DNA of 64,000 nucleotides from Actinoallomurus soli (GTDB lineage Bacteria > Actinomycetota > Actinomycetes > Streptosporangiales > Streptosporangiaceae). Shown here one piece after another: positions 9,427 through 44,875 of the stretch; the stretch's first letter is position 1; each line of letters starts with the position of its first letter. Under the pieces are notes generated by a model. The model was not told where the DNA came from. It did no database searches and saw nothing but the letters and a program-made list of their open reading frames with translations. The stretch covers positions 1 to 64,000 of the forward strand of contig NZ_JAMXMV010000016.1 of NCBI RefSeq assembly GCF_024055715.1, in the 5' to 3' direction. Both the position numbers and the translations under genes were made by a program.

Positions 9427-10329
9427 TCAGGCCGGCCAGGAGTACTCCTCGCCCAGCAGCTCGTACAGGGCCCGGTTGTGCGGCCGGTAGAACTCGGTGA
9501 GCTCCTCCTTGGTGGCCGGATTCATCGGCGGCGCCGGAAGATGGTTGTGCCGCTCGGCGATCTTCAGCGGATGTGCAGGAAGTCCCAGGAATTCGGTGAC
9601 CCGGTCCACGGCCGCCTGTTCGTTCGTGTACAGGTCCTCCGCCGGCATGATGAGGAACTGCTCGCGTGGGAAGACCGAGAACCAGTGCTCCAGCTGCGGC
9701 CGGTAGATGCCGCGGTCCCGGTAGGTGTAGAAGTCGTGGGCCCGGCTGTAGTACATCGGGTCGGCGGCCATCTTCTCGCGCTCGCCGCGCAGCCGCTCCG
9801 GCTCGGCCGCCAGGGCGTCCTCGAAGCTCAGGTCCTCGACGCCGTCCCCGACCCGCTCCCAGTAGTGGGAGTAGGCCCGTTTCACCGGATCGCGCAGCGT
9901 CACGATGATCTTCACGTCCGGAGTGCGGGCGCGCACCCGCTCCGGCACCGGCGGGTAGTACATGTAGTACGGGCAGGCCTCGCCGGTGACGGGCCGGGGG
10001 CCGCCGAGGCGCTGCTGGATCCGGTCGAGCTCCTCCTCGGTGGCGAAGTGCGAGCGGTACCAGTCGTCGCCCCGGTCGTAGTTGACGTAGTAGTAGCCGG
10101 GGCTCTTGACCCCGCGCGACTCCGGATACATCGGCATGACCAGCGGGTGCTGGATGAGGTAGTTCCACAGCGAGGTCGTGCCGCCGCGCTTGGTGCCGAT
10201 GATGAGGAAGTCCGGCAGGTGCCGCCGGCCGGCGGTCCGCACGGCGTACGCGCGCGTCGTCGCGTTGGCCGCGTCCTTCACCCAGCGTGGCGAGCGGTCC
10301 TTCGCCCACCCGACGAACCCGGTCGGCAC
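9427..10329 (-). CDS. PAPS-dependent sulfotransferase
   Basis: 300 residues. The 5'-phosphosulfate loop is FLIIGTKRGGTTSLWNYL (about 41-58), and the 3'-phosphate-binding strand/helix is VTLRDPVKRAYSHYWE (about 145-160). Both are needed to bind PAPS in cytosolic and carbohydrate sulfotransferases. No signal peptide or transmembrane helix is visible, so it should act in the cytoplasm, probably on a lipid-linked sugar or repeat unit. It sits one base from the flippase gene and in the same direction, inside the polysaccharide locus that also encodes cysD, cysN and cysQ. A natural-product or protein substrate cannot be excluded. Confidence 0.85.
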   Translation of the reverse strand: MPTGFVGWAKDRSPRWVKDAANATTRAYAVRTAGRRHLPDFLIIGTKRGGTTSLWNYLIQHPLVMPMYPESRGVKSPGYYYVNYDRGDDWYRSHFATEEELDRIQQRLGGPRPVTGEACPYYMYYPPVPERVRARTPDVKIIVTLRDPVKRAYSHYWERVGDGVEDLSFEDALAAEPERLRGEREKMAADPMYYSRAHDFYTYRDRGIYRPQLEHWFSVFPREQFLIMPAEDLYTNEQAAVDRVTEFLGLPAHPLKIAERHNHLPAPPMNPATKEELTEFYRPHNRALYELLGEEYSWPA

Positions 10330-10330
10330 G

Positions 10331-12043
10331 TCAGCCCTCCTCTTTCTCCCCGGCGCGCCCGCGTGACCGCAGCGCCCCGAACATCACGTCGGCCTGCAGC
10401 ACGTGCCGCAGCCGCCACAGCACGGCACCGTAGCCGCCGGTGGCCAGGACGGCGTACGCGGCGAACGCCGGCAGGCCGGTGCCCAGGAGGATCCGCAGCA
10501 CGATGCCGAGGCCGCCGAACCACACCAGCGCCCAGGCCCCGACGGGAGCGAGCGTACGTGTCCGCAGCCGCAGGCCCATGAGGTAGCGAACCTGCACCAC
10601 GGCCAGCAGGTTGTCCACGAGCATCGAGACGCCCCACGCGGTGGCGGCTCCGATGATGCCGAACGACGGCACCAGCAGCAGGTGCAGCACCACCATGAGG
10701 ACCACGACGACGGCCTTGTCGATCAGGTTCCACGAGCTCTTGCCGCCCATCAGCAGGACCGTCTGCACGTTCCCGGTCGCCAGCACCAGCGCCATGGCGC
10801 AGGCAAGGATCGCCATCGCCCCGGCGCCGCCGCGGAAGTCCGTGCCGAACAGCGTGAGGACGAACGGCCCGAACACCGCGAGGGCGAGGTACAGCGGCCA
10901 GGAGGCGGCGACGATCCAGCCGGTCGCGACCGCGTTCAGGTCCTCGGCCTGCCGGGTCTCCCCCCGCGCGAGCAGGCCGGCGATCTGCGGCGCGACGGCG
11001 AGCCGGGTGGCCGCCAGCACGAGCGTCCCGGTCGTGATGAACCGGCCGGCCGTGGCGTAGATGCCCGCGTCGTGGCTGGACACCATCGCGCTGACGAGCG
11101 GAACGCCGAGCCAGGTGACGACGATCTCGAGCATGGCCGCCACGCCGCGCAGCCCCGAGAAGGCCCAGAACTCCCGGACCGCCGAAGACGCCGCGCCGCC
11201 GGACGCGATCCCGTCCCCTCCGGCCAAGGCGGGTGCGATCTGGCCTGCTCCGGCCACCGCGGGTGCGATCGGGCCTGCTCCGGCCGCCGCGGGTGCGACC
11301 TGATCCGGTCCGGCCGCCGTGGACGCGACCCGGGCCGCTCCGGCCGCCGCATGGTCCTCCGACTCCGCCCGGCGGAGCAGCCGCCACAGGATCGCGACCG
11401 CCGCGACGAAGGTCAGCGCGATGGGCAGTGACCAGGCGACCATGACCCCGCCGGCGCCGTAGCCGACGGCGGCGACGGCGATGACGAGCACCGGGCGGCT
11501 CAGCGGCGTGACGACGTTCGCCTGGACGGTGAACGCGGCGAGACTGCCCATGCCGCGGGTGCCCGAGAGCGCGACGTTGCGGGCGGCCGACACGGCCAGG
11601 ACGGGTCCGCAGACCCGCAGCAGGAACACCGCGTCGTCATGGTGCGCGGAGTCGACGAGCAGCCCGGCCAGCCACGGCGCCAGCGCGAACACCGCGAGCC
11701 CGGCGACCGCGCCGACGGCCAGCACGGGGACCAGCGCGGCGACGACGACCCGGCGGAGGTCACCGACCCGGCCGAGGGCGCGCAGGCGCGCCGTCGTGCG
11801 TACCAGGCCCGTGTCGGCGCCCAGCTCGGTGACCTCCGTGAGGATCATGAAGAGCGCGACCACGGTGAAGAAGACGCCCGTCTGCGCCGGGCCCAGCACC
11901 CGCGCGACGACGACGGTCAGCAGGAAGCCCGCCACCGCGGCGACGCCGGAGCCGACCAGCCCGATCGCCCCGCCGCGCGCGAACTCCCGTACGTGCGAGC
12001 GCCCGGCGCGGTCGTCCCGCGCGGCCTCGGCCTGAGTGGTCAA
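10331..12043 (-). CDS. Wzx-type polysaccharide flippase
   Basis: 570 residues with 12-14 predicted membrane helices, starting GGAIGLVGSGVAAVAGFLLTV after a short basic N-terminus. The pattern (VVARVLGPAQTGVFFTVVAL, then LGADTGLVRTTARL) fits the oligosaccharide-flippase/MATE-like superfamily that moves undecaprenyl-linked repeat units across the membrane. A cytoplasmic loop near residues 225-275 carries an Ala/Pro-rich decapeptide repeat not expected in the family. Its ATG overlaps the stop of the upstream polymerase gene by four bases, indicating translational coupling, and the sulfotransferase follows directly. Confidence 0.8.
   Translation of the reverse strand: MTTQAEAARDDRAGRSHVREFARGGAIGLVGSGVAAVAGFLLTVVVARVLGPAQTGVFFTVVALFMILTEVTELGADTGLVRTTARLRALGRVGDLRRVVVAALVPVLAVGAVAGLAVFALAPWLAGLLVDSAHHDDAVFLLRVCGPVLAVSAARNVALSGTRGMGSLAAFTVQANVVTPLSRPVLVIAVAAVGYGAGGVMVAWSLPIALTFVAAVAILWRLLRRAESEDHAAAGAARVASTAAGPDQVAPAAAGAGPIAPAVAGAGQIAPALAGGDGIASGGAASSAVREFWAFSGLRGVAAMLEIVVTWLGVPLVSAMVSSHDAGIYATAGRFITTGTLVLAATRLAVAPQIAGLLARGETRQAEDLNAVATGWIVAASWPLYLALAVFGPFVLTLFGTDFRGGAGAMAILACAMALVLATGNVQTVLLMGGKSSWNLIDKAVVVVLMVVLHLLLVPSFGIIGAATAWGVSMLVDNLLAVVQVRYLMGLRLRTRTLAPVGAWALVWFGGLGIVLRILLGTGLPAFAAYAVLATGGYGAVLWRLRHVLQADVMFGALRSRGRAGEKEEG
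11218..11367. repeat. 30-bp tandem repeat inside the flippase gene (five units)
   Basis: Five contiguous 30-bp units starting CTCCGGCC at 11218, 11248, 11278, 11308 and 11338; the last is diverged. They keep the frame and encode a 10-residue repeat of the type AGxxxIAPAV in a predicted cytoplasmic loop of the flippase. Copy number could vary between strains without breaking the protein. Confidence 0.85.
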
Positions 12044-35490: not shown

Positions 35491-37230
35491 CTACGCCTCA
35501 TCAGCGAGGATGAGCCACTGCTCCTCGATCTCCTCGCGCTCGGCCCGGACCGTTTTCAGCTCCGCGTCAAGCTCCAGCAGCTTCTCGTGGTCGGTGGCGT
35601 GCGCGGCCATCAGCTCGTGCAGCTCCGCCTCCCGGGCGCCGAGCTTCTCGATGCGCCGTTCCAGCCGGTCGAGCTCCTTCTTCGCCTGCCAGGAGTTCTT
35701 GGCCGGCTTCGGCTCGGCGGCCGCCGCCCGTACGGGCTGGGGTTCCGGCTCCGACCGGCGCCGCCGGTCGAGGTACTCATCGACACCGCCGGGCAGCAGC
35801 GACAGCCGTCCGTCGCCGAGCAGCGCGACGACGTGGTCGCTGACCCGCTCCAGGAAGTACCGGTCGTGGCTGACCAGCACGAGCGACCCGGGCCACCCGT
35901 CGAGCAGGTCCTCCAGCTCGGTGAGCGTCTCGATGTCGAGGTCGTTGGTCGGCTCGTCGAGCAGGAGGACGTTCGGCTCGGCCATGAGGAGGCGCAGCAT
36001 CTGCAGGCGCCGCCGCTCACCGCCGGACAGGTCGCCCACCGGGGTCCACTGCGCGTCGCCGCGGAAGCCGAACCGCTCCAGCATCTGGCTCGCCGAGAAC
36101 TCCCGTTTCCCGAGGCTGATGCGCCGCTTGATCTCCTCGACCGACTCCAGGACCCGCTGCGCCGGGTTCAGCTCGCCGAGCTCCTGCGACAGGTGCGCGA
36201 GCTGCACCGTCTTGCCGCGGATCACCCGGCCGGCGGACGGCGCGACCGTCCCCTCCAGGAGCCGCAGCAGCGTCGTCTTCCCGCTGCCGTTGACGCCGAC
36301 CACGCCGACCCGGTCACCGGGCCCGAGCTGCCACGTCAGGCGCTCGAAGAGCGTACGGTCACCGACGCGCAGGGTGACGTCCTCGACGTCGTACACCGTC
36401 TTGCCGAGCCGCGCCGTCGCGAACCGCACCAGCTCCACGGTGTCACGGGCCGGCGGCTCGTCGGCGATCAGGGCGTTCGCGGCCTCGACGCGGAACTTCG
36501 GCTTGGACGTACGCGCCTGCGGCCCCCGCCGCAGCCAGGCCAACTCCTTACGGAGGAGGTTCTGCCGCTTCTCCTCCGCGGAGGCGGCGATGCGAGCGCG
36601 CTCCGCCTTGGCGAGGACGTACGCCGAGTACCCGCCCTCATAACGGTGCACCTGCCCGTCGGACACCTCCCACGTCCGCTCGGTCACCGCGTCCAGGAAC
36701 CACCGGTCGTGGGTGACGACGATGAGCGTACGGTCCTTCAGGTGCCCGGCCAGCCAGGCGATCGCCTCGATGTCCAGGTGGTTGGTGGGCTCGTCCAGGA
36801 CGAGAAGATCGGTCTCCGGTACGAGCAGCCGGGCGAGTGCCACGCGCCGCCGCTCACCACCGGACATGCCCTCGATCGGGGAGTCCAGGGAGACGTCGGG
36901 CAGCAATCCGGCCAGGATGTCCCGGGCCCGGGCGTCACCCGCCCACTCGTGCTCGGCCCGATCACCGAACACGACGGAGCGCACGGTCGCCCCGGCGGGG
37001 AACTCGTCCCGTTGGGTGAGGAACCCCAGCCGCAGCCCGCGGGTATGCGTGACACGCCCGCTGTCGGGCTCGACACGGCCGGCGAGCAGCGAGACCAGCG
37101 TGCTCTTGCCCCCGCCGTTCCGGCCGACCACCCCGATCCGGTCACCGGCGGACACGCCGAGAGAGACATCATCGAGCAGCGGAACCGGCCCGTACGCCTT
37201 GCCCAGGCCTTCAACATTGATCAGATTCAC
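35491..37230 (-). CDS. ABC-F family ATP-binding protein
   Basis: 579 residues from the GTG at 37230 (VNLINVEGLGKAYGPVPLLD). Two ATPase cassettes: Walker A GRNGGGKSTLVSL and GVNGSGKTTLLRL; signatures MSGGERRRVALAR and LSGGERRRLQMLR; Walker B LLVLDEPTNHLD and VLLLDEPTNDLD. They are joined by a charged linker (about 240-300) and followed by a C-terminal coiled coil (about 510-575). There are no membrane domains, so it acts on the ribosome rather than as a transporter. In actinomycetes this gene normally lies beside ispE; here a 6.5-kb island separates them. Confidence 0.92.
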   Translation of the reverse strand: MNLINVEGLGKAYGPVPLLDDVSLGVSAGDRIGVVGRNGGGKSTLVSLLAGRVEPDSGRVTHTRGLRLGFLTQRDEFPAGATVRSVVFGDRAEHEWAGDARARDILAGLLPDVSLDSPIEGMSGGERRRVALARLLVPETDLLVLDEPTNHLDIEAIAWLAGHLKDRTLIVVTHDRWFLDAVTERTWEVSDGQVHRYEGGYSAYVLAKAERARIAASAEEKRQNLLRKELAWLRRGPQARTSKPKFRVEAANALIADEPPARDTVELVRFATARLGKTVYDVEDVTLRVGDRTLFERLTWQLGPGDRVGVVGVNGSGKTTLLRLLEGTVAPSAGRVIRGKTVQLAHLSQELGELNPAQRVLESVEEIKRRISLGKREFSASQMLERFGFRGDAQWTPVGDLSGGERRRLQMLRLLMAEPNVLLLDEPTNDLDIETLTELEDLLDGWPGSLVLVSHDRYFLERVSDHVVALLGDGRLSLLPGGVDEYLDRRRRSEPEPQPVRAAAAEPKPAKNSWQAKKELDRLERRIEKLGAREAELHELMAAHATDHEKLLELDAELKTVRAEREEIEEQWLILADEA

Positions 37231-37748: not shown

Positions 37749-38591
37749 TCAGCGGAGATGCTGGCCGATGGCCTCGATCAGCCTAATAGAGTATTGGCGC
37801 GTCACAGCTTCCGTCAGGTTGCGGCCCTTTACCGGGTTGCCGGCGTTCGCTGCGGATGAGTAATCCGCACCTTCAAAGAAGACGGATATCACGACGTTTC
37901 GGAAGCGGGCACATACATAGCTACCGCCAATGTCATAACTTCTTACAGAGCCGTCTTGGCTAGGATGAGCGGCGGCCTGCTCCTTCACGGGAAGAGTGAA
38001 CACTTCATCACCAATACCTGTGGTCGCTTCTGCCGCCCCCTGCTCAAGAGCATACTTCCCCGTCGAAGTACGCTTATTCGCCATCTCGTTTCTCCTGGCG
38101 GCGAGATCAGCGTGCGCACCGTTCGGGTCGACGCTCCGCTTCACCGAAAGACGCAAGTACCGACCAAACTTAGAGTTGAACGACACCCATATGAAAGTCT
38201 GCCCATCACCCGGACTTCTATCAGTGTCATCTCCAGTGAAGACCTTCCCGGAGGTGACATCATTCGTGATCACCGGAGATACGGCCCTAGCCACGTTAGG
38301 CAACGTGCGGACCAGTCCAGATGAGTCCAGAACAGCCTTGTCCGGCAACTTGTCGACAGGAGCCGCCGGCAGCGACTGACTAGGAGCTGATCGCGAATGA
38401 GACGAATCTTCGCCTAGGTAAACCCGTATCGCTACACCCACGATAGCCATGCCGATCGAAAGCGATACTAGGACCCAACGAAGCCCCCGGGACTTCTTTA
38501 CACTCGACCTACTGCGCCGATCACCTTCACCTTTCGATCGAGGGCCTCCATAGACGTCGGTCGGAGGCTCCGGACCCACGGGTCCCGCCAT
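37749..38591 (-). CDS. Single-pass membrane protein of unknown function (island gene 8)
   Basis: 280 residues: a Pro/Gly/Arg-rich cytoplasmic N-terminus (about 1-35), one transmembrane helix (about 38-58, LRWVLVSLSIGMAIVGVAIR), and a 220-residue extracytoplasmic domain. That domain contains GQTFIWVSFNSKFGRYLRL and SVRSYDIGGSYVCARFRNVV and ends in a helix. This resembles the DUF3558/sensor-like lipid-exposed domains common in actinobacteria, but no family is certain. It is last in an eight-gene minus-strand run, 75 bases after the previous gene. Codon use is clearly less GC-biased than in the flanking housekeeping genes. Confidence 0.7.
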   Translation of the reverse strand: MAGPVGPEPPTDVYGGPRSKGEGDRRSRSSVKKSRGLRWVLVSLSIGMAIVGVAIRVYLGEDSSHSRSAPSQSLPAAPVDKLPDKAVLDSSGLVRTLPNVARAVSPVITNDVTSGKVFTGDDTDRSPGDGQTFIWVSFNSKFGRYLRLSVKRSVDPNGAHADLAARRNEMANKRTSTGKYALEQGAAEATTGIGDEVFTLPVKEQAAAHPSQDGSVRSYDIGGSYVCARFRNVVISVFFEGADYSSAANAGNPVKGRNLTEAVTRQYSIRLIEAIGQHLR

Positions 38592-38666
38592 GTCTCAGAT
38601 TCCCTTTACCCATTCGATGCCGTCGCCCGGCACCGGAGTCACCTCATCAGGAATTTGACGGAGCAC

Positions 38667-39014
38667 CTATACTGAGTCCTCTTCGCCCGAGTGATGAGCC
38701 TCCCTAGAGCGCTGTTCTCTTCTAAAAAGGTACGCAACAAAGATCGTTGCAGTTGCCCCCGGAATTGGCGCAAAACGAAGAACCTCGTGCATGGATATAC
38801 CCACGATGAAGGCGCAAATCATCGTCAACCACAGAACACCGATGGCTAGCCGCAATGAAGGTGGCGTGGTTCGCCGGATGCGGCCCCAATTTCCGGTGCC
38901 AAACAACGTAATCGCAGGACCCGCAGAAAGAAAAACAACAATGATCGAATATAGGATACCAAGGAGCGTGTATCCGATGAGGAAATCCGCTGTCGCGGCA
39001 CCATGACCACTCAT
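38667..39014 (-). CDS. Small three-helix membrane protein (island gene 7)
   Basis: 115 residues with three hydrophobic segments (about 10-38, 56-76 and 82-97) and a charged C-terminal tail (RREQRSREAHHSGEEDSV). No family recognised. It begins 9 bases after the stop of the glycine-zipper protein gene, so co-translation is likely. Small membrane proteins often accompany toxin/immunity or secretion modules; an immunity-type role to the preceding protein is a guess. Confidence 0.65.
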   Translation of the reverse strand: MSGHGAATADFLIGYTLLGILYSIIVVFLSAGPAITLFGTGNWGRIRRTTPPSLRLAIGVLWLTMICAFIVGISMHEVLRFAPIPGATATIFVAYLFRREQRSREAHHSGEEDSV

Positions 39015-39023
39015 CGCTTTGCC

Positions 39024-39875
39024 TTAGTCAAAAATTGCTCCTACCAATGGGGCCACTACCGCACCGACGGCAGCTCCCACCCCAATGCCAGCACCTGTGC
39101 CGAAGCCCGGCGCTGGAACGAGCGTACCGATGACGCCACCAGCAATCGTGAAGTCACCCAGCACGACCCCTTCTGCCAAGTCTTTCATGACGCCCTTCTT
39201 GTGAGCGTCCGGCGGGTGGGCAGCCATAAGCGGGTAATCTGCGGTCGTGAAGCTCTTCTCAAGACCCGCCAGCTGGGAGGCAAGAGAGTTGATCTCTGCC
39301 TGAGACAGCAAAGTTCGGTGATTATTCCGATAGTTGACCATCCCGGCGGCCAGCATCTTATATTCCGAGGCGAGCTTCTGCGCAGCCGCCCGACGAACTT
39401 TCTCAGCAGCGGCCAGCGCTTCGGCTCGACGTTGATTAAATTGCCCAAGGAAAGTCTGTATTTTTGGATTCGAGGAGCCGCGGGGAAGGCTCATGTTCCC
39501 CGATCGATCGATAACAACGTAACCAGCTGCCACCCCTCTTTCTGCCTGCTTCTCCAGCCAACATTCGATCTTGGCGAGGTTGAGTGCAAGATTGTCGACG
39601 ATCTCGCCGATCGAAGTCGCACGCTGAGACAACCAGTTTATGTCGTTCAAGTCCTGACCGAACTGGTCTTTGAATTCCCCTACGGCCGAGCCGGGGTATA
39701 CAGAGGCACCACTCTCGCGAACCAGGCGAGTGACCGTACGGTTCAAGTCAGCAACAGGTTCTTTGCTATCCTCCGCGAAGTTGTAGAGCACTTGAGCAAG
39801 ACCCGACAGGCCTTGAATATCGCCACCAACCCAGTTAGCAGAAAAAGTCGGCAGAGGCAATGTTGCTTTCGACAT
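39024..39875 (-). CDS. WXG100/LXG-like protein with C-terminal glycine-zipper segment (island gene 6)
   Basis: 283 residues. The N-terminal 200 are largely helical, with a WXG-like turn region (YPGSAVGEFKDQFGQDLNDI) and heptad-like stretches (RRAEALAAAEKVRRAAAQKL). The last 50 form an unusual Gly/Ala/Val hydrophobic run (GVIGTLVPAPG, FGTGAGIGVGAAVGAVVAPL) with GxxxG spacing, like the glycine-zipper membrane-insertion segments of some effectors. It lies between a WXG100-like gene and a three-helix membrane protein in the same operon. I suggest a secreted effector or membrane-active substrate, by architecture only. Confidence 0.65.
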   Translation of the reverse strand: MSKATLPLPTFSANWVGGDIQGLSGLAQVLYNFAEDSKEPVADLNRTVTRLVRESGASVYPGSAVGEFKDQFGQDLNDINWLSQRATSIGEIVDNLALNLAKIECWLEKQAERGVAAGYVVIDRSGNMSLPRGSSNPKIQTFLGQFNQRRAEALAAAEKVRRAAAQKLASEYKMLAAGMVNYRNNHRTLLSQAEINSLASQLAGLEKSFTTADYPLMAAHPPDAHKKGVMKDLAEGVVLGDFTIAGGVIGTLVPAPGFGTGAGIGVGAAVGAVVAPLVGAIFD

Positions 39876-39890
39876 CCCCGGTCTCCGCTG

Positions 39891-40190
39891 TCAGTAGCTC
39901 GGCGGCGGCGTCTTCTTTGTCAGGTAATCAAAAATGTTACCTTCAGCCTCTTGGTAGTTACGCCGGGCATAGTCCAACTTGTAAGCATGTGCACTTACAG
40001 CTTGGGCGAGTACCACATGCATCTCATAGAGAGCATCGAGCGTCACACTGAGCATTTTGTCGATTGTTGCGTCACCACCTGATGGGCAGGTGAGCTGAGT
40101 CATTAGGTTGGCATAAGCCTCTCCTTGCCGCGAGAACTCGGCTGACGCCCTTGCTAGATCGTTGAAGACGACCTTGTAGCCGCTGCTCAC
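39891..40190 (-). CDS. ESX/WXG100-like small helical protein, DUF6317-like (island gene 5)
   Basis: 99 residues: MSSGYKVVFNDLARASAEFS, then a Pro/Gly turn (TCPSGGDATIDKM) and a second long helix ending HAYKLDYARRNYQEAEGNIF. The helix-turn-helix hairpin of about 100 residues and a C-terminal Y-x3-(E/D)-like pattern fit type VII secretion substrates; the sequence pattern recalls DUF6317 proteins. Its ATG overlaps the stop of the SseB-like gene by four bases. It is a likely partner or substrate of the adjacent proteins. Confidence 0.7.
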   Translation of the reverse strand: MSSGYKVVFNDLARASAEFSRQGEAYANLMTQLTCPSGGDATIDKMLSVTLDALYEMHVVLAQAVSAHAYKLDYARRNYQEAEGNIFDYLTKKTPPPSY

Positions 40191-40606
40191 GAATTCTCCC
40201 TCCTCCAGGCCGCCACCCGGTCAGCCGTCCACCTCTCGGCGTCTTCTTGCACTACCGGGTTCACCACGACGCGCACCTGGGCATGTGATATCTGAATCAG
40301 AAGCTCAAGAACTGGCATCTTTTCCCAAGGTTGCCATTCTCCGAGCTGCTCGACAAGCAATTCTTGCTCGGTGAATACCGGCAGCACACCGGTTCCATCT
40401 GCGAGAGCTCGCAGCTCGAACTGCACCTCCCGAGGGCCGGCGGCTTCAGATGGCTTGCTCGGAAGGGTGGGCACGTATATCCAGGCGACGCCTTCGGTCA
40501 ACTTCTTTCGGGCTTCGTAAGCGCTACGTGCCGCCGGGCCATTCATCGGCGATGAGCTGGGGCCTCCAGGGGGAGCCGATGATGGACCGTGGCTGGGGGA
40601 ATTCAT
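40187..40606 (-). CDS. SseB/SAV_915-like protein (island gene 4)
   Basis: 139 residues from the ATG at 40606 (a GTG at 40612 is an alternative; GAAGGGTGAGG precedes both). The N-terminus is Pro/Ser-rich. The domain (about 35-138) has WIYVPTLPSKPSEAAGPREV, LPVFTEQELLVEQLG and the final VVVNPVVQEDAERWTADRVA. This pattern, an SseB-like alpha/beta domain with FT..E.L...G and a closing (V/L)NP, is found in small proteins encoded near actinobacterial type VII clusters. It begins a few bases after the mycosin stop. Confidence 0.55.
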   Translation of the reverse strand: MNSPSHGPSSAPPGGPSSSPMNGPAARSAYEARKKLTEGVAWIYVPTLPSKPSEAAGPREVQFELRALADGTGVLPVFTEQELLVEQLGEWQPWEKMPVLELLIQISHAQVRVVVNPVVQEDAERWTADRVAAWRRENS

Positions 40607-40615
40607 CCTCACCCT

Positions 40616-41878
40616 TCACTTGTTCCGTATATCGAATGTGCCTTCGTGTGGCTGCCTGTCACCAGTAGAAGCGGTGCCAGCCACGTTCACTCGCCGGCGC
40701 CACACGAACCCGCCGACCACGACCATGGCGATGATGGCACCGGCCGCGGTGAGGGAGATGATGAGGAGTCCGTTACGTGCATGGCCCGATTTCGCCGATG
40801 TCTGCGTTGCAGAGGATTTCGGTGTAGGCCGAGCAGCCGCAGCCGAATGAGATGCCTGCCACTTGTCGAACGCTTCGAAGACGGGGTTCGGTGCGTTCGA
40901 TGGGACGGGGTAGCGCTGCGGGTTCATCGCGGCGGTGATCTGAATCGCGCCATAACCCGTCTGATCGTTCCACTTCGAGGAGCCCAACGGACGAGCCGTC
41001 GCGATCAATCTTTGCACCACGGTACGCGCCGACATTCCGGGGTTACGTGCTCGAATCAGCGCCACAGCGCCCGATGTCAGCGCTGAAGCCATACTTGTTC
41101 CCCAGCCGGAATAGCCTTGCCCGTCTTTTCCAATCGTTCCACCGACACCCGGGGCAGCTACGGAAACGTACCATTGCCTTTCAGAACCAGCTTGGGGTTG
41201 CAGATGTTCATCAATCGAACCGACCGCCAACACCCCTACACATGAAGCAGGCATCTCTGGCGGATTTGAGCCGTCACCCAAATTCCCTGCAGCCGCTACT
41301 ACCACCACGTCATGCTGCAGCGCGTATGAAACGGCAGCCTGCACGTCTGGATCACAATGCTGCGAAATATAGGTCGAATCCGATCCCTGAGAAATATTTA
41401 TTACTTTGGCCCCGTGATCGACGCTGTATCTGATACCGTCGGCGAATCCCTTGAATTCGATGTCGGCCCGGTCACCGGGCTGTTCTGCGGCATGAACAGG
41501 CAGCACCTTCACGGATGGAGCGATACCGACATAGCCAGTGGGCCCGCCACCCCGGGCCGCAATGAGCGCCGCCATCGCGGTCCCGTGACCAAAATCGAAG
41601 TCGAAGTCCTTACGGCCATCACTGTCATGCCCTGTGGTATCCGTTCCCGGAAGAACAGCTCCGCTCAACTCGGGCAACTCAGCGTTGACTCCAGTATCCA
41701 GGACGGCGACAGTGATACCGGCACCAGTCGTCGTCGGCCAGACATCGCTCTGAATACCCCAGGCGGAGAACCACCATTCATCCTGACGCGGCTGGGGTTG
41801 GGCGTCGGCCCTCATCGGCGGCATCACCGCAGCGAAGGTGGCGACAAGGCCTACAGCGAGGCGCCAGACGATCTTCAC
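40616..41878 (-). CDS. Type VII secretion-associated serine protease (mycosin)
   Basis: 420 residues: signal peptide (about 1-26, ending ADA-QPQ), subtilase domain with Asp61 (VAVLDTGVN), His98 (FGHGTAMAALI), oxyanion Asn199 (AAAGN) and Ser262 (GWGTSMASALTSG). A Pro/Ala/Ser linker and a C-terminal transmembrane helix (about 370-395) with a short basic tail follow. This is the MycP architecture: an extracellular membrane-anchored subtilisin that trims or quality-controls ESX substrates. It overlaps the upstream PPE-like gene by four bases. No EccB, EccC, EccD or EccE gene lies in the window, so it is either orphan or works with a distant system. Confidence 0.92.
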   Translation of the reverse strand: MKIVWRLAVGLVATFAAVMPPMRADAQPQPRQDEWWFSAWGIQSDVWPTTTGAGITVAVLDTGVNAELPELSGAVLPGTDTTGHDSDGRKDFDFDFGHGTAMAALIAARGGGPTGYVGIAPSVKVLPVHAAEQPGDRADIEFKGFADGIRYSVDHGAKVINISQGSDSTYISQHCDPDVQAAVSYALQHDVVVVAAAGNLGDGSNPPEMPASCVGVLAVGSIDEHLQPQAGSERQWYVSVAAPGVGGTIGKDGQGYSGWGTSMASALTSGAVALIRARNPGMSARTVVQRLIATARPLGSSKWNDQTGYGAIQITAAMNPQRYPVPSNAPNPVFEAFDKWQASHSAAAARPTPKSSATQTSAKSGHARNGLLIISLTAAGAIIAMVVVGGFVWRRRVNVAGTASTGDRQPHEGTFDIRNK

Positions 41879-43242
41879 ACATCTTCCTCGAAGTACCAGG
41901 GAGAGTCTTTGCCAACTGCTCCGACCTGCCCCTGTTCGCGATTCGTTGGATTCTCCAGTTGCTCGACCTTCGCACGTAGCCGGGCGATCTCCTCTTGTGG
42001 GTCCTCACCGCTGTCTTCGAGGCTCAACTCGTAGAGGAGCTGATCAAGATCATCGCTATCACTGGATAGATCGATCTGGACGAGCTCCGGCGCTTCGTCG
42101 CCGGCACTCGCTGATTCGTCCTTGGCTTCCCTGGCGCCGATGAGGTGTGAGCCTGCCTCAATGCCGCCGGTCCACACGTCCTCGTCTTCGGTGAGCCACG
42201 TCGTACGCTCACGTTCACGGTCACGGCGATCGCCTGCCGCTCCACCGGCAGGACCCACCACACCGGCCTGGCTCGCAGCCCTCATCTCGGCGGCTTGACT
42301 TGCAGCCCTTGTTTCGGCGGCTTGAGCCTCTTCGGCTGCACTCGCCGCCGCATCGCTCACAGCCCTACGGCTTCCAACTCCCCCCCATGGGCCATTCGCT
42401 GGGCTGATGACTCCAGGACCACCTGGTAGCAACCCTCCGATGACACCCCGCGGAGGAGCATCGATGCCTGCTCCAGGCATCCCTGGACTACCTGGAGCGT
42501 TAGGTAGTAGGCCGGTCCTGCCGCCGGGCATCTCAGTCCTTGGATCGGGTGCTGGAGATCCCGCGAGCTGCGTATTCGAGCCGTCGGCGCCAGACACCGG
42601 GTGACCGCTGCCCGGAACGTGAGATGACCCTTCGGAGGCACCGCTCCGGATCTTCGGCGCGTGTCCACCGACACCCGGCGCTCTACCATCCGCAACAGGG
42701 TTTCCTGCAGGGCTTCCACCTGCTGTTTCTCCGATCCTTTTCGCGCCGGTGGTCGGAGAAGGTTCGTAGAGCGAGTTGTTCGGCGGGAGGGTGGTACTGA
42801 CGTCTGAGGGCATCCCGGCCCACGCCTGGTAGACGCGTTCGTTGGCACCGGCCATCCAGCTCCGTGCCTCGGCTAGGTCTTTAGACGGAGGCCTCTTCTG
42901 GTACCAATCCAGGTTGGACCCGTAGTCATTGATCGCAGACCCGAATTCCTGCGCGGATCGTTGAATGGTCGCAGATGATGCCCAAATCTCCCGCAGTGCG
43001 GACTGTGCGGCGGCGGCGTCTGTTCCGCCCCAGGCTTCATGAAGCATGCCACGGACCGTGACCAAGTCGGTCGTGACCTTCTCGTACGCGGAAGCGAAGT
43101 CCTGGTAGTTCTGTCCAGCCGCCTTGACATCGTCCGGAGCCGTCTTCTTCAAGAGATCGTCGATGTCTTTGCGACTGTTGTACTCACCAGGCGTTCCGGA
43201 AGGAGCGCCGGCGCGCATGGGGAACGTGAAGCCCTCGGCCAT
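41875..43242 (-). CDS. Large WXG100/PPE-like protein with Gly/Pro-rich and acidic tail (island gene 2)
   Basis: 455 residues from the ATG at 43242, chosen over 43257 because GGAAGG lies seven bases ahead of it. The N-terminal 150 residues are helical with a WxG turn (MLHEAWGGTDAAAAQSALRE) and YEKVTTDLVTVRG before it, as in WXG100/PPE proteins. Residues 170-320 are a Gly/Pro/Ser-rich low-complexity region, and the last 130 are acidic with a coiled coil (EEIARLRAKVEQLEN). It is a likely type VII substrate or scaffold. It couples to the mycosin gene downstream. Confidence 0.75.
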   Translation of the reverse strand: MAEGFTFPMRAGAPSGTPGEYNSRKDIDDLLKKTAPDDVKAAGQNYQDFASAYEKVTTDLVTVRGMLHEAWGGTDAAAAQSALREIWASSATIQRSAQEFGSAINDYGSNLDWYQKRPPSKDLAEARSWMAGANERVYQAWAGMPSDVSTTLPPNNSLYEPSPTTGAKRIGETAGGSPAGNPVADGRAPGVGGHAPKIRSGASEGSSHVPGSGHPVSGADGSNTQLAGSPAPDPRTEMPGGRTGLLPNAPGSPGMPGAGIDAPPRGVIGGLLPGGPGVISPANGPWGGVGSRRAVSDAAASAAEEAQAAETRAASQAAEMRAASQAGVVGPAGGAAGDRRDRERERTTWLTEDEDVWTGGIEAGSHLIGAREAKDESASAGDEAPELVQIDLSSDSDDLDQLLYELSLEDSGEDPQEEIARLRAKVEQLENPTNREQGQVGAVGKDSPWYFEEDV

Positions 43243-43243
43243 C

Positions 43244-43732
43244 TCAGTGCCTTCCATCCGGGTTCAAAGAGTTGGCCACAGGTGCCTGTGACTCGGGCCG
43301 CGCCGACGGCGGGGAGAAGTCATAGCTCATCGCGCTACCCCCCGGCGCGACGTTCAGCCGCTTGTCCAGCGCAGCGATCCGGCGCGCGAGGTTCGCCTCG
43401 TTCGCGTCATGAACGTTCGCAGCTTGATGCAGCTTGTGAATCGTGCTCAGCAGAGCGTGCAGGATGCGGCTGTGCTGCTCGGCGAGGGCATGGTGACCGG
43501 CTTCGACGCTCGGCTGCAATTCCAACGCGGCGTCCCACGTGCCGAGCGCGCTCGGGTCTTTGAGCGGCTGCAGTCGCTCACTCGCCGCGAGGAGGTCTTC
43601 GAGGTGAGCTTCGAGTCGGTCGGCGACCGCTCTGACCTGAGAGGTGTCGACCCGGAGCTTGCCATGGTCGTCGATTCCCGGCCAGTCGTTGTACGTCTGA
43701 AGTGGAGCCGAGTTCGCGTTCACCGGCGGCAT
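43244..43732 (-). CDS. WXG100/EspC-like helical protein (island gene 1)
   Basis: 162 residues from the ATG at 43732 with AGGAGG nine bases upstream. Two long helices (VRAVADRLEAHLEDLLAASE and HALLSTIHKLHQAANVHDAN) surround a turn at about 58-66 (DPSALGTWDAAL), then ANEANLARRIAALDK, similar to the WXG100/EspC hairpin with its N-x2-L-type end. No signal peptide. It is first in the eight-gene operon and lies one base from the next start. Confidence 0.65.
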   Translation of the reverse strand: MPPVNANSAPLQTYNDWPGIDDHGKLRVDTSQVRAVADRLEAHLEDLLAASERLQPLKDPSALGTWDAALELQPSVEAGHHALAEQHSRILHALLSTIHKLHQAANVHDANEANLARRIAALDKRLNVAPGGSAMSYDFSPPSARPESQAPVANSLNPDGRH

Positions 43733-43972: not shown

Positions 43973-44875
43973 CTACAGCAGGGTCACACCCGGGACCGGG
44001 CCGGAGGCGGGGCGGACGGCAGCGAAGCGGCCCGACTCGTTCAGGGCGGCGGCGAGTTCGGCGCTGTGATCCAGGGAGGCGGCGAGGAAGGCGCACGTGG
44101 GGCCGGAGCCGGACACCAGCGCGCCGAGGGCGCCCGCATCCCGACCGGCCGCCAGCGCGTCGCGGAGGGACGGGCGGAGGCTCAGGGCCGCCGGCTGCAG
44201 GTCGTTGTGCAAGGCCCGGCCGAGGGCCTCGGCGTCGCCGGTCTTCAGGGCGGTCATCAGGTCGTCCGACACCTGGGGCCACACGCTGTCCTGCTCCCCC
44301 GCGGCGCGCAGCCGGTCGCACTCGGCGTACACCGCGGGCGTGGACAGGCCGCCGTCGGCGTACCCGAACACCCAGTGGAACTCCCCCGTGACCTCGACCG
44401 AGGTCAGCCGCTCCCCCCGGCCCAGGCCGACGGCGGTGCCGCCGAGCAGGGCGAACGGGACGTCGCTGCCGAGTCGGGCGCCGAGTTCGAGCAGCGTCTC
44501 GCGGTCGAGACGGGCCTCCCACAGGACGTCGCAAGCGAGCAGGGCGGCGGCCGCGTCGGCGCTGCCGCCGGCCATGCCGCCCGCGACCGGGATGTCCTTG
44601 CGGATGTGCAGCGCGACGTCGGGGCGCCTGCCGATGTGCTCGGCCAGAAGGGCGGCGGCGCGGGCGGCGAGGTTGTCCGGGCCGGTCGGCACGTTCGCCG
44701 GGCCCTCGACGGTGACGCTCAGCGCCTCGGCGGGGGTGGCGGTCACCTCGTCGAACAGCGAGACGGCGTGGAAGACGTTGACGAGGTCGTGATAGCCGTC
44801 GTCGCGGACGGGGCCGACGCTCAGCTGGAGGTTCACCTTGGCGGGCACGCGCACGGTCACAGTACTCACGATCAA
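43973..44875 (-). CDS. ispE: 4-diphosphocytidyl-2-C-methyl-D-erythritol kinase
   Basis: 300 residues. GHMP-kinase motifs: substrate Lys in [14 protein letters not shown], the ATP loop [19 protein letters not shown] (about 96-114), and [15 protein letters not shown] near the C-terminus. It phosphorylates CDP-methylerythritol in the MEP pathway of isoprenoid synthesis. The predicted TTG start overlaps the rsmA stop by four bases; a GTG two codons later is an alternative. The usual neighbour on the other side (ABC-F) has been displaced by the island. Confidence 0.96.

Follow-up and report, generated by a model that had tools for sequence, protein, structure and literature searches.

A low-GC gene island of Actinoallomurus soli as a candidate ESX satellite carrying a toxin-immunity-like cassette

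Gene content, composition and insertion site of the island

The window analysed here is a stretch of 64,000 nucleotides (positions 1 to 64,000 of contig NZ_JAMXMV010000016.1, forward strand) from the genome of Actinoallomurus soli, which amounts to 9.42 Mb in 60 contigs. It contains, between ispE and the gene of an ABC-F ATPase, an island of eight genes (A to H) that an earlier note, made from the sequence alone, had likened to an accessory module of type VII secretion (T7SS) and that we regard as a candidate satellite of the ESX machines encoded elsewhere in the genome. The island covers positions 37749-43732 on the minus strand, and its eight open frames were all found at the coordinates and in the orientation that had been described, running as one unit: three junctions overlap by 14, 4 and 4 bases, and the other four leave 3, 15, 9 and 75 bases between the genes. 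The genes and their flanks are the following.

ispE, 43973..44860, minus strand: one flank of the insertion site.
A, 43244..43732, minus strand: helical protein of 162 amino acids (aa), with C-terminal HDANEANLARRI where most homologs carry YxxxD/E.
B, 41875..43257, minus strand: 460 aa, with a WXG100-like N-terminus, a Pro/Gly-rich middle and a C-terminal tag.
C-terminal tag of B (WLTEDEDVW), 42172..42198, minus strand: common to the B of a second satellite and the B of one ESX locus.
C, the mycosin, 40616..41878, minus strand: 420 aa, with a signal-peptide-like N-terminus, a subtilase domain and a C-terminal transmembrane helix.
D, 40187..40612, minus strand: 141 aa, SseB/SAV_915-like; possible cytoplasmic chaperone of E and F.
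E, 39891..40190, minus strand: 99 aa, DUF6317 (PF19840); WXG100-like candidate partner of F, with the export pattern YQEAE.
F, 39024..39875, minus strand: putative effector of 283 aa, WXG-like and helical over about residues 1-209, variable, glycine-rich and hydrophobic over about 210-283.
G, 38667..39014, minus strand: polytopic membrane protein of 115 aa; putative immunity protein to F.
H, 37749..38591, minus strand: 280 aa, with one transmembrane segment and an extracytoplasmic domain; candidate orphan immunity protein or ESX accessory.
ABC-F ATPase gene, 35491..37230, minus strand: the other flank, directly adjoining ispE in the related genome G005.

The guanine-plus-cytosine (GC) content of the island is 0.594 (59%) against ~71% around it, and none of the same-size windows placed elsewhere in the 64 kb (n = 922) falls below 0.682 (z -9.3 for the island). 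The same drop, already visible to the earlier note, is seen at third codon positions, with values of 0.52-0.79 in the eight island genes and 0.93 +/- 0.04 in the 47 others.

Comparison with seven relatives of the same genus (G001 to G007) defines the insertion site. In G005 it is empty, with 111 bp of normal GC between ispE and the ABC-F gene, and of 23 loci outside the genus 13 have the ABC-F gene at a distance of 9-844 bp behind ispE, which makes the description of the two genes as usually adjacent a fair one. A homolog of A stands behind ispE in six of the seven genus genomes with an ispE match (the window, G001, G002, G004, G006 and G007; the search in G003 gave no match) and in 0 of the 23 loci outside the genus. 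The distance from ispE to the ABC-F gene is 5.3-11.6 kb in the five genomes in which both ends of the island were seen. No tRNA gene lies close to the island, the single one of the window (Gln) being far off at 27.7 kb, and no direct repeat of at least 14 bases with one copy on each side was found. A plasmid origin was considered and set aside, with no homolog of F at an E-value of 1e-3 in 72,556 plasmid records; three matches to the mycosin (~36%) were obtained at 1e-30 in the same records.

A front resembling the tail of an ESX locus

The subtilase triad motifs of protein C (D61, H98 and S262) are intact and, together with its signal-peptide-like N-terminus and C-terminal transmembrane helix, agree with the earlier assignment as a mycosin (MycP). 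The protein matches TIGR03921 at an E-value of 5e-79 (265.9 bits, slightly below the curated cut-off of 278.75) and PF00082 at 1e-41, and the mycosin at the ESX tail of the same genome likewise falls under the TIGR03921 cut-off (264.8 bits). Protein B matches PF25547 (WXG100_2) at 4e-5 and protein D matches NF042914 at 2e-9 and PF07179 at 0.003, all below the respective cut-offs; no curated Pfam or NCBIfam family was matched by A, F, G or H. The AlphaFold model of A (predicted local distance difference test, pLDDT, 68) places helices at residues 30-52, 65-71, 74-104 and 110-125, and the T7SS export pattern YxxxD/E is present in 11 of 15 distinct homologs of A (one duplicate row dropped).

The island does not hold the EccC, EccB and EccD that mark an ESX locus of the type VIIa system (T7SSa): its genes match no Ecc family and the window contig gave no EccC-profile match, in agreement with the absence of core machinery already remarked upon. 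The search for Ecc genes in the rest of the genome that had been suggested at that time yielded 22 EccC-profile matches, among them six above the curated cut-off and a seventh, weaker but full-length, all on other contigs, together with 13 mycosin-profile matches, two of them above cut-off. An EccC above cut-off is encoded in all 8 genomes of the genus. In all seven relatives an EccC 75-84% identical to that of contig C33 of the own genome (78% in G001) is accompanied by EccD and EccB; a mycosin follows these genes in six of them (the G001 stretch ends early), and a WXG pair and a B are present at the locus in five (they did not turn up in the stretch from G004, and that from G001 ends before them).

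In the own genome a complete ESX locus, on contig C33, has the gene order EccC, EccD, EccB, WXG, WXG, a 180-aa protein, B and mycosin, and EccC-EccD-EccB-WXG-WXG-...-B-mycosin is seen in loci L046/L047, L110/L131 and L160. The N-terminus of the ESX-locus B resembles that of the island B (z 8.2), and the 180-aa protein resembles the A of G006 (z 7.7), while it is hardly like the A of the window (z 3.4). By its gene order and these similarities, the front of the island (A-B-mycosin) looks like an ESX tail that was copied and detached from its locus.

The island might instead be the decaying remnant of an ESX locus whose own Ecc genes were deleted, and ecc-linked relatives together with a simple deletion here were what the earlier note had named as able to overturn its reading. 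Half of this was found, as Ecc-containing loci with D-E-F occur in other genera (G212, G137 and G256). A simple deletion is not supported, because the genome retains the complete ESX locus at a separate place and the insertion site of G005 has no island. Moreover, all eight frames are open and the mycosin triad motifs intact, A and C of G004, G006 and G007 remain 55-82% identical to those of the window, and a locus with EccB, EccC and EccD exists at another place of the own genome and in each of the seven relatives. A decaying remnant is thus already disfavoured and very improbable. The six EccC proteins encoded elsewhere and the empty site of G005 lend good support to the other view, put forward in the earlier note, of an acquired T7SS module lacking Ecc genes that could borrow a remote ESX machine, and so does the profile relation of E and F to WXG100 described below; that such a machine is in fact borrowed is an inference.

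Exchange of the cargo behind the front

The gene tables used here rest on tblastn and chains of open frames. At the ispE site the order A-B-mycosin-D-E-F is found in the window, G004, G006 and G007, and G002 carries A-B-mycosin followed by two YbaB-like proteins (the identity being confirmed for the first), a 110-aa, a 227-aa and a lipoprotein-like protein. In G001 the ispE-site contig stops inside B and another A-B-mycosin-D-E-F island lies on a 16-kb contig. The gene order that was to be sought in other genomes is therefore conserved in its front (A-B-mycosin) and varies in the cargo behind it, and it is this exchangeable cargo, with its resemblance to a polymorphic toxin-immunity cassette, that had escaped the earlier reading.

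Fronts of this kind are not confined to the ispE site. A second low-GC island with the same front and a YbaB cargo similar to that of G002 lies on contig C11 of the own genome (L048, about 157.4-162.7 kb), without Ecc matches and next to what we take to be the glycyl-tRNA synthetase gene; it holds A, B, mycosin, two YbaB-like, two helical-looking and one lipoprotein-like protein. Contig C50 of G007 carries a related front (second satellite). In genus g38, A-B-mycosin is followed in four genomes (L154, L155, L157 and L158) by a small protein and one of 537-571 aa, with no Ecc match within the 20 kb taken around these fronts. The large protein, scanned in L157 only, combines a PPE-like N-terminus with Abhydrolase_8 (E-value 2.7e-32). 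These four loci, in which a large WXG/PPE protein is accompanied by small proteins behind it, represent a third type of cargo.

In a midpoint-rooted tree of 29 mycosin rows, the satellites and five of the six ESX-tail mycosins are placed on one branch (99/99), apart from the mycosins on the EccC side (ESX front). The ispE-site mycosins of the five islands in which this gene was recovered form one clade (100/100), within which those of G006, with D-E-F cargo, and G002, with YbaB cargo, are sisters (100/98). Thus the cargo appears to have been exchanged behind an inherited front. Three further mycosin-like proteins of the own genome (L045, L049 and L050) fall outside the satellite branch, and no EccC match was found in the 20-kb stretches taken around them.

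A tag shared by the B proteins of satellites and an ESX locus

The tag of B was searched as the DNA form of the pattern W-[LIMV]-x-E-D-x-D-x-W, with the TTR leucine codons left out. The 9.4 Mb genome contains three matches, in the B of the island, of the C11 island and of the C33 ESX locus, and the reversed pattern used as a control gave 0 matches in the same genome. This sharing makes the C33 locus the most likely partner of the island. The relatives gave six exact matches: in the islands of G004 and G007, in the ESX tail of G002, in the second satellite of G007 (C50), at a contig end of G003 beside a B-like match and at an uncertain place in G002 (C13). At the protein level the tag is present in the ESX stretches of G002 and G007, the latter using a TTG codon missed by the pattern, and was not seen in the ESX stretches taken from the other five relatives; the expectation of one B tag per ESX locus of the genus was not borne out in general. 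The tag matched no known family and is possibly a docking signal. In the B of the window, L046, L048, L198, L201 and L203 it takes a form like RERxxWLxEDxDxW, often followed by P-x-x-IG.

E and F as a putative WXG-type pair and their distribution

Protein E matches PF19840 with 54.4 bits, above the gathering cut-off of 27.4; a literature search found no paper on DUF6317. Its homologs carry YxxxD/E near the C-terminus in 14 of 17 distinct sequences and FxxxD in two more (two duplicate rows dropped). This pattern and a longer form of it are described as a T7SS signal in the cited text (PMC3935865). In hhalign comparisons against eight WXG100 proteins, F aligned with a probability of 83% (E-value 9e-6), with the W-x-G turn in register, and E with 43% (2.6e-4), as against 0.04% for protein D, which served as the control. 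The F of the window, which has VYPG at this turn, did not reach the Pfam WXG100 cut-off, and four of nine F homologs match Pfam WXG100 at E-values of 0.05 or less (best 5.7e-6). By these profiles E and F resemble a pair of WXG-type substrates. The relation of the helical proteins to WXG100 folds, on which the earlier note had relied, therefore holds for E and F, weakly for B, and is no more than putative for A. Identification of F as an LXG toxin (PF04740) was rejected, as the window F was unmatched and one of nine homologs matched at 0.005.

At E-values of 0.001 or less, 24 of the 200 family genomes and 13 of the 296 class genomes contain homologs of F, and many of these matches are weak and WXG-like; with the single window F sequence as query, 9 of 149 matched. 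D-E-F stands directly behind the mycosin of Ecc-containing loci in G212 (L110/L131) and G137 (L059/L161, another family), and 3 kb behind it in G256 (L109/L160). In L121 of G181 (9644-10813) a protein starts with a WXG-like N-terminus and ends in what is presumably a domain resembling the NlpC/P60 cell-wall enzymes.

The variation of the cargo behind one front could also mean that the front and D-E-F are functionally separate and share only an insertion hot spot. D-E-F does occur without a mycosin match in the stretches taken from the own genome (L043), G023 (L058) and G234 (L108). The tight overlaps, short gaps and single direction of the island genes argue against such a separation, as does the recurrence of the order mycosin-D-E-F in another genus (G212) and another family (G137), and we consider it improbable.

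The C-terminus of F and its membrane partner

A closer comparison of the islands localises the exchange to the C-terminal part of F and the gene behind it. Between the window and G004, proteins A to E are 68-89% identical and residues 1-209 of F 70%, and identity falls to 32% over the remainder of F and to 30% for the membrane protein encoded behind it. Between G004 and G007 the N-terminal part of F is 36% identical, the rest of F 57% and the membrane protein 44%. The shuffle z-scores follow the same course, being 116 for the N-terminus and 3 for the C-terminus of F in the window/G004 pair, and 22 for the C-terminus of F and 31 for the membrane proteins in the G004/G007 pair. The membrane partner thus covaries with the C-terminal type of F.

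G has two hydrophobic segments over threshold and its G007 homolog three. Further downstream G007 carries an orphan homolog of the window G (64% identical), and between its D and E lies what is left of a second E of the window type, decayed and with a broken frame (L042:11240-11560); the two can be read as traces of a replaced cassette. In G004 the cognate membrane protein is followed by an H fragment and two small membrane proteins (L040:10939-11995), an arrangement like an orphan-immunity array, in which one of the small proteins is like that of G006 (z 13) and the other like the window G (z 12). A homolog of H is the lipoprotein-like protein behind F in G234 (z 33), and more of them adjoin the ESX loci of G005, G006 and G202.

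Twenty-five F loci, including that of Kitasatospora, were looked at and 20 were judged, leaving out L112 and L114 (frames ending after the N-terminal part), L118 (contig end) and L121 and L126 (whose matches are weak and have different C-termini). In 17 of the 20, F has a neighbour that is polytopic or lipoprotein-like. In the zipper-like class, the protein encoded behind F measures 89-131 aa and contains two or three hydrophobic segments in seven of eight loci (the window, G004, G006, G007, G256, G156 and L124 of G137, the last a weak F match; not G023). In the class with a large C-terminus, a polytopic protein of 167-228 aa containing G-[TR]-[TS]-W-x-x-R-G-x-x-Y overlaps or follows F in seven of eight (G110, G308, G137, two of G198, G001 and Kitasatospora; not L115 of G198); in G110 (L057) a second copy of this polytopic protein begins ~0.5 kb behind F. 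In the short non-zipper class a lipoprotein-like protein lies behind F in G212 and G234 and before it in the own locus own3, with none in own2. Glycine-zipper motifs, counted over the C-terminal 80 residues in 15 F proteins against 1000 shuffles, are well above chance in G004 (9 motifs, reached by 2 shuffles), G007 (11, by 0) and G256 (12, by 0), and less so in G006 (5, by 28) and G023 (6, by 16).

The conserved N-terminus with recombined C-termini, the adjacent partner that follows the C-terminal type and the presence of orphan partners are the features by which polymorphic toxin-immunity systems are recognised, and the cargo looks like such a cassette. Several observations weigh against it and against the mode of action proposed below. 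The window F itself has a zipper of modest strength, with a count of 4 motifs that 26 of 1000 shuffles also reach, and the motifs are at chance in nine of the 15 F proteins; no toxin-domain match was found in F, and its AlphaFold model, with a mean pLDDT of 50 that drops to ~23-30 in the last 70 residues, is of low quality and usable for helix placement only. No partner was found at three of the 20 loci (G023, own2 and L115 of G198). The immunity candidates also show similarity across types, up to z 9.3 (window G against the G004 cognate protein), which makes the orphan assignments in G004 soft and suggests that the types may be distant relatives. As to the front, the A proteins of the window and G004 have H replacing the Y of the export pattern, the exact tag pattern occurs in only four of the seven relatives, and a tree with all satellites in one clade is not rejected (p-AU, approximately unbiased test, 0.056), so that the satellites may have detached once or several times.

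A self-directed module would account for part of these data: E/F and G could form a complex in the envelope of the producer, serving envelope or developmental functions with assistance from ESX and with no antagonism, and the covariation of F and G would then be structural. The toxicity of F is putative, H-like proteins recur beside ESX loci, and two loci of the own genome (L043 and L044) hold D-E-F or E-F with no mycosin in the 20 kb taken. Against this, the C-termini and whole cassettes turn over rapidly, extra partner copies are present, and a decayed older E lies beside the newer E-F in G007; such turnover, extra copies and decayed genes are typical of conflict systems rather than of housekeeping complexes. 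We regard a self-directed module as unlikely, though less so than the other alternatives.

The position of a protease next to a putatively membrane-acting protein in a low-GC island could also be read as a unit for abortive infection or phage defence, with the protease releasing a pore-forming F. PADLOC gave a generic subtilase match (E-value 3e-17) and weak ones, PHROGs gave the protease and a family of unknown function only, and all of these matches but one fall on the mycosin; a phage or defence origin was rejected on this ground. The signal-peptide-like N-terminus and transmembrane helix should place the protease domain outside the cytoplasm and the T7SS context is strong, which leaves an anti-phage function with hardly any credibility.

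Proposed mode of action

We propose, as the probable reading, that the island is an ESX satellite which borrows one of the resident ESX machines for the export of an antibacterial effector (F) that acts on membranes, with G as its immunity protein. In this scenario E and F would be produced together as a pair of the WXG type, with D perhaps shielding F as a cytoplasmic chaperone, and would be exported through a resident machine, most likely that of the C33 locus, because the C33 B shares the C-terminal tag. The part of adapter and machine-side partner would fall to A, B and the mycosin, and the mycosin could join the borrowed membrane complex, given that MycP stabilises ESX complexes. The glycine-rich C-terminus of F may then insert into and depolarise the membrane of a competitor from outside, and the polytopic G would protect the producer; export of E/F, membrane action of F and protection by G are proposed by analogy with EsxX. 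H could be an orphan immunity protein or an ESX accessory. The sequences themselves establish homology, synteny and covariation, and from these we infer secretion, toxicity, immunity and the use of the C33 machine, as well as what D, H and the mycosin would do.

A broader and more tentative idea, which we hold as possible rather than likely, is that mobile ESX satellites exist in Actinobacteria, in which a fixed adapter front (A, tagged B and dedicated mycosin) docks on a resident machine, swaps its own mycosin in and carries interchangeable effector cassettes. If so, the cargoes would comprise a polymorphic glycine-zipper toxin with membrane immunity, a YbaB type and a WXG-alpha/beta-hydrolase, and T7SSa would possess a modular antibacterial arsenal with the mycosin as its cargo-specific part.

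Relation to known systems

To our knowledge, antibacterial T7SS toxins are documented mainly for the type VIIb system (T7SSb) of Firmicutes, and we know of no report of Actinoallomurus as a pathogen. A full-text literature search for type VIIa secretion with antibacterial effectors or immunity turned up a single paper, on Bacillus, and searches for papers linking Actinoallomurus to type VII secretion, on an orphan mycosin of Streptomyces type VII secretion or on a protease-independent role of MycP in type VII secretion returned none. The cassette is naturally swapped and has sharp boundaries, and sister species hold a set of putative immunity genes; with this material one can test whether competitors are killed by T7SSa, by what means co-resident ESX machines divide their substrates and for what reason a mycosin accompanies the cargo.

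The nearest precedent for an Ecc-less accessory cluster away from its parent is ESX-5a/b/c of Mycobacterium, described in the cited text as duplicated parts of ESX without a secretion apparatus, far from the parent locus, and suggested to assist the parent machine with some of its substrates (PMC4852179). As described there, these clusters differ from the island in comprising four genes (two esx, pe and ppe), without a mycosin or swapped toxin-immunity cargo (PMC4852179). EccB, EccC and EccD like those of a parent machine are encoded in the own genome and by each of the seven relatives, and the island would depend on such a machine in the same way.

For the mycosin, the passages cited report that MycP, a subtilase with a membrane anchor like C, stabilises the ESX membrane complex and that its protease activity is dispensable for secretion (PMC5082899); C differs from the MycP of ESX systems in having no eccB, eccC or eccD in cis and in scoring slightly below the equivalog threshold. 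Earlier work had already listed a protease resembling a mycosin in the neighbourhood of the actinobacterial toxin Ntox38 (Imm56) (PMC3482391).

The cargo is closest in architecture to TelE, an LXG protein with a glycine zipper whose immunity protein TipE is soluble (PMC10434224), and to EsxX, an LXG protein with a glycine zipper, small helical partners and polytopic membrane immunity proteins (ExiABCD) that also occur as orphans (PMC12744356), as far as the cited texts go. With both F shares a putative helical T7SS targeting domain and, at the C-terminus, a candidate glycine zipper, and with EsxX the island further shares the small helical partners and the polytopic membrane immunity candidates, orphans included. 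TelE and EsxX belong to the T7SSb of Firmicutes and carry an LXG domain, whereas F is not LXG by Pfam, stands in an actinobacterial T7SSa setting behind a mycosin and has a DUF6317 partner. The conserved leader, variable C-terminus and adjacent immunity gene are likewise those of the polymorphic toxins with WXG leaders in the cited account (PMC3482391), to which F is compared in architecture. What is new is the combination of a detached, mycosin-bearing front with exchangeable effector-immunity cassettes.

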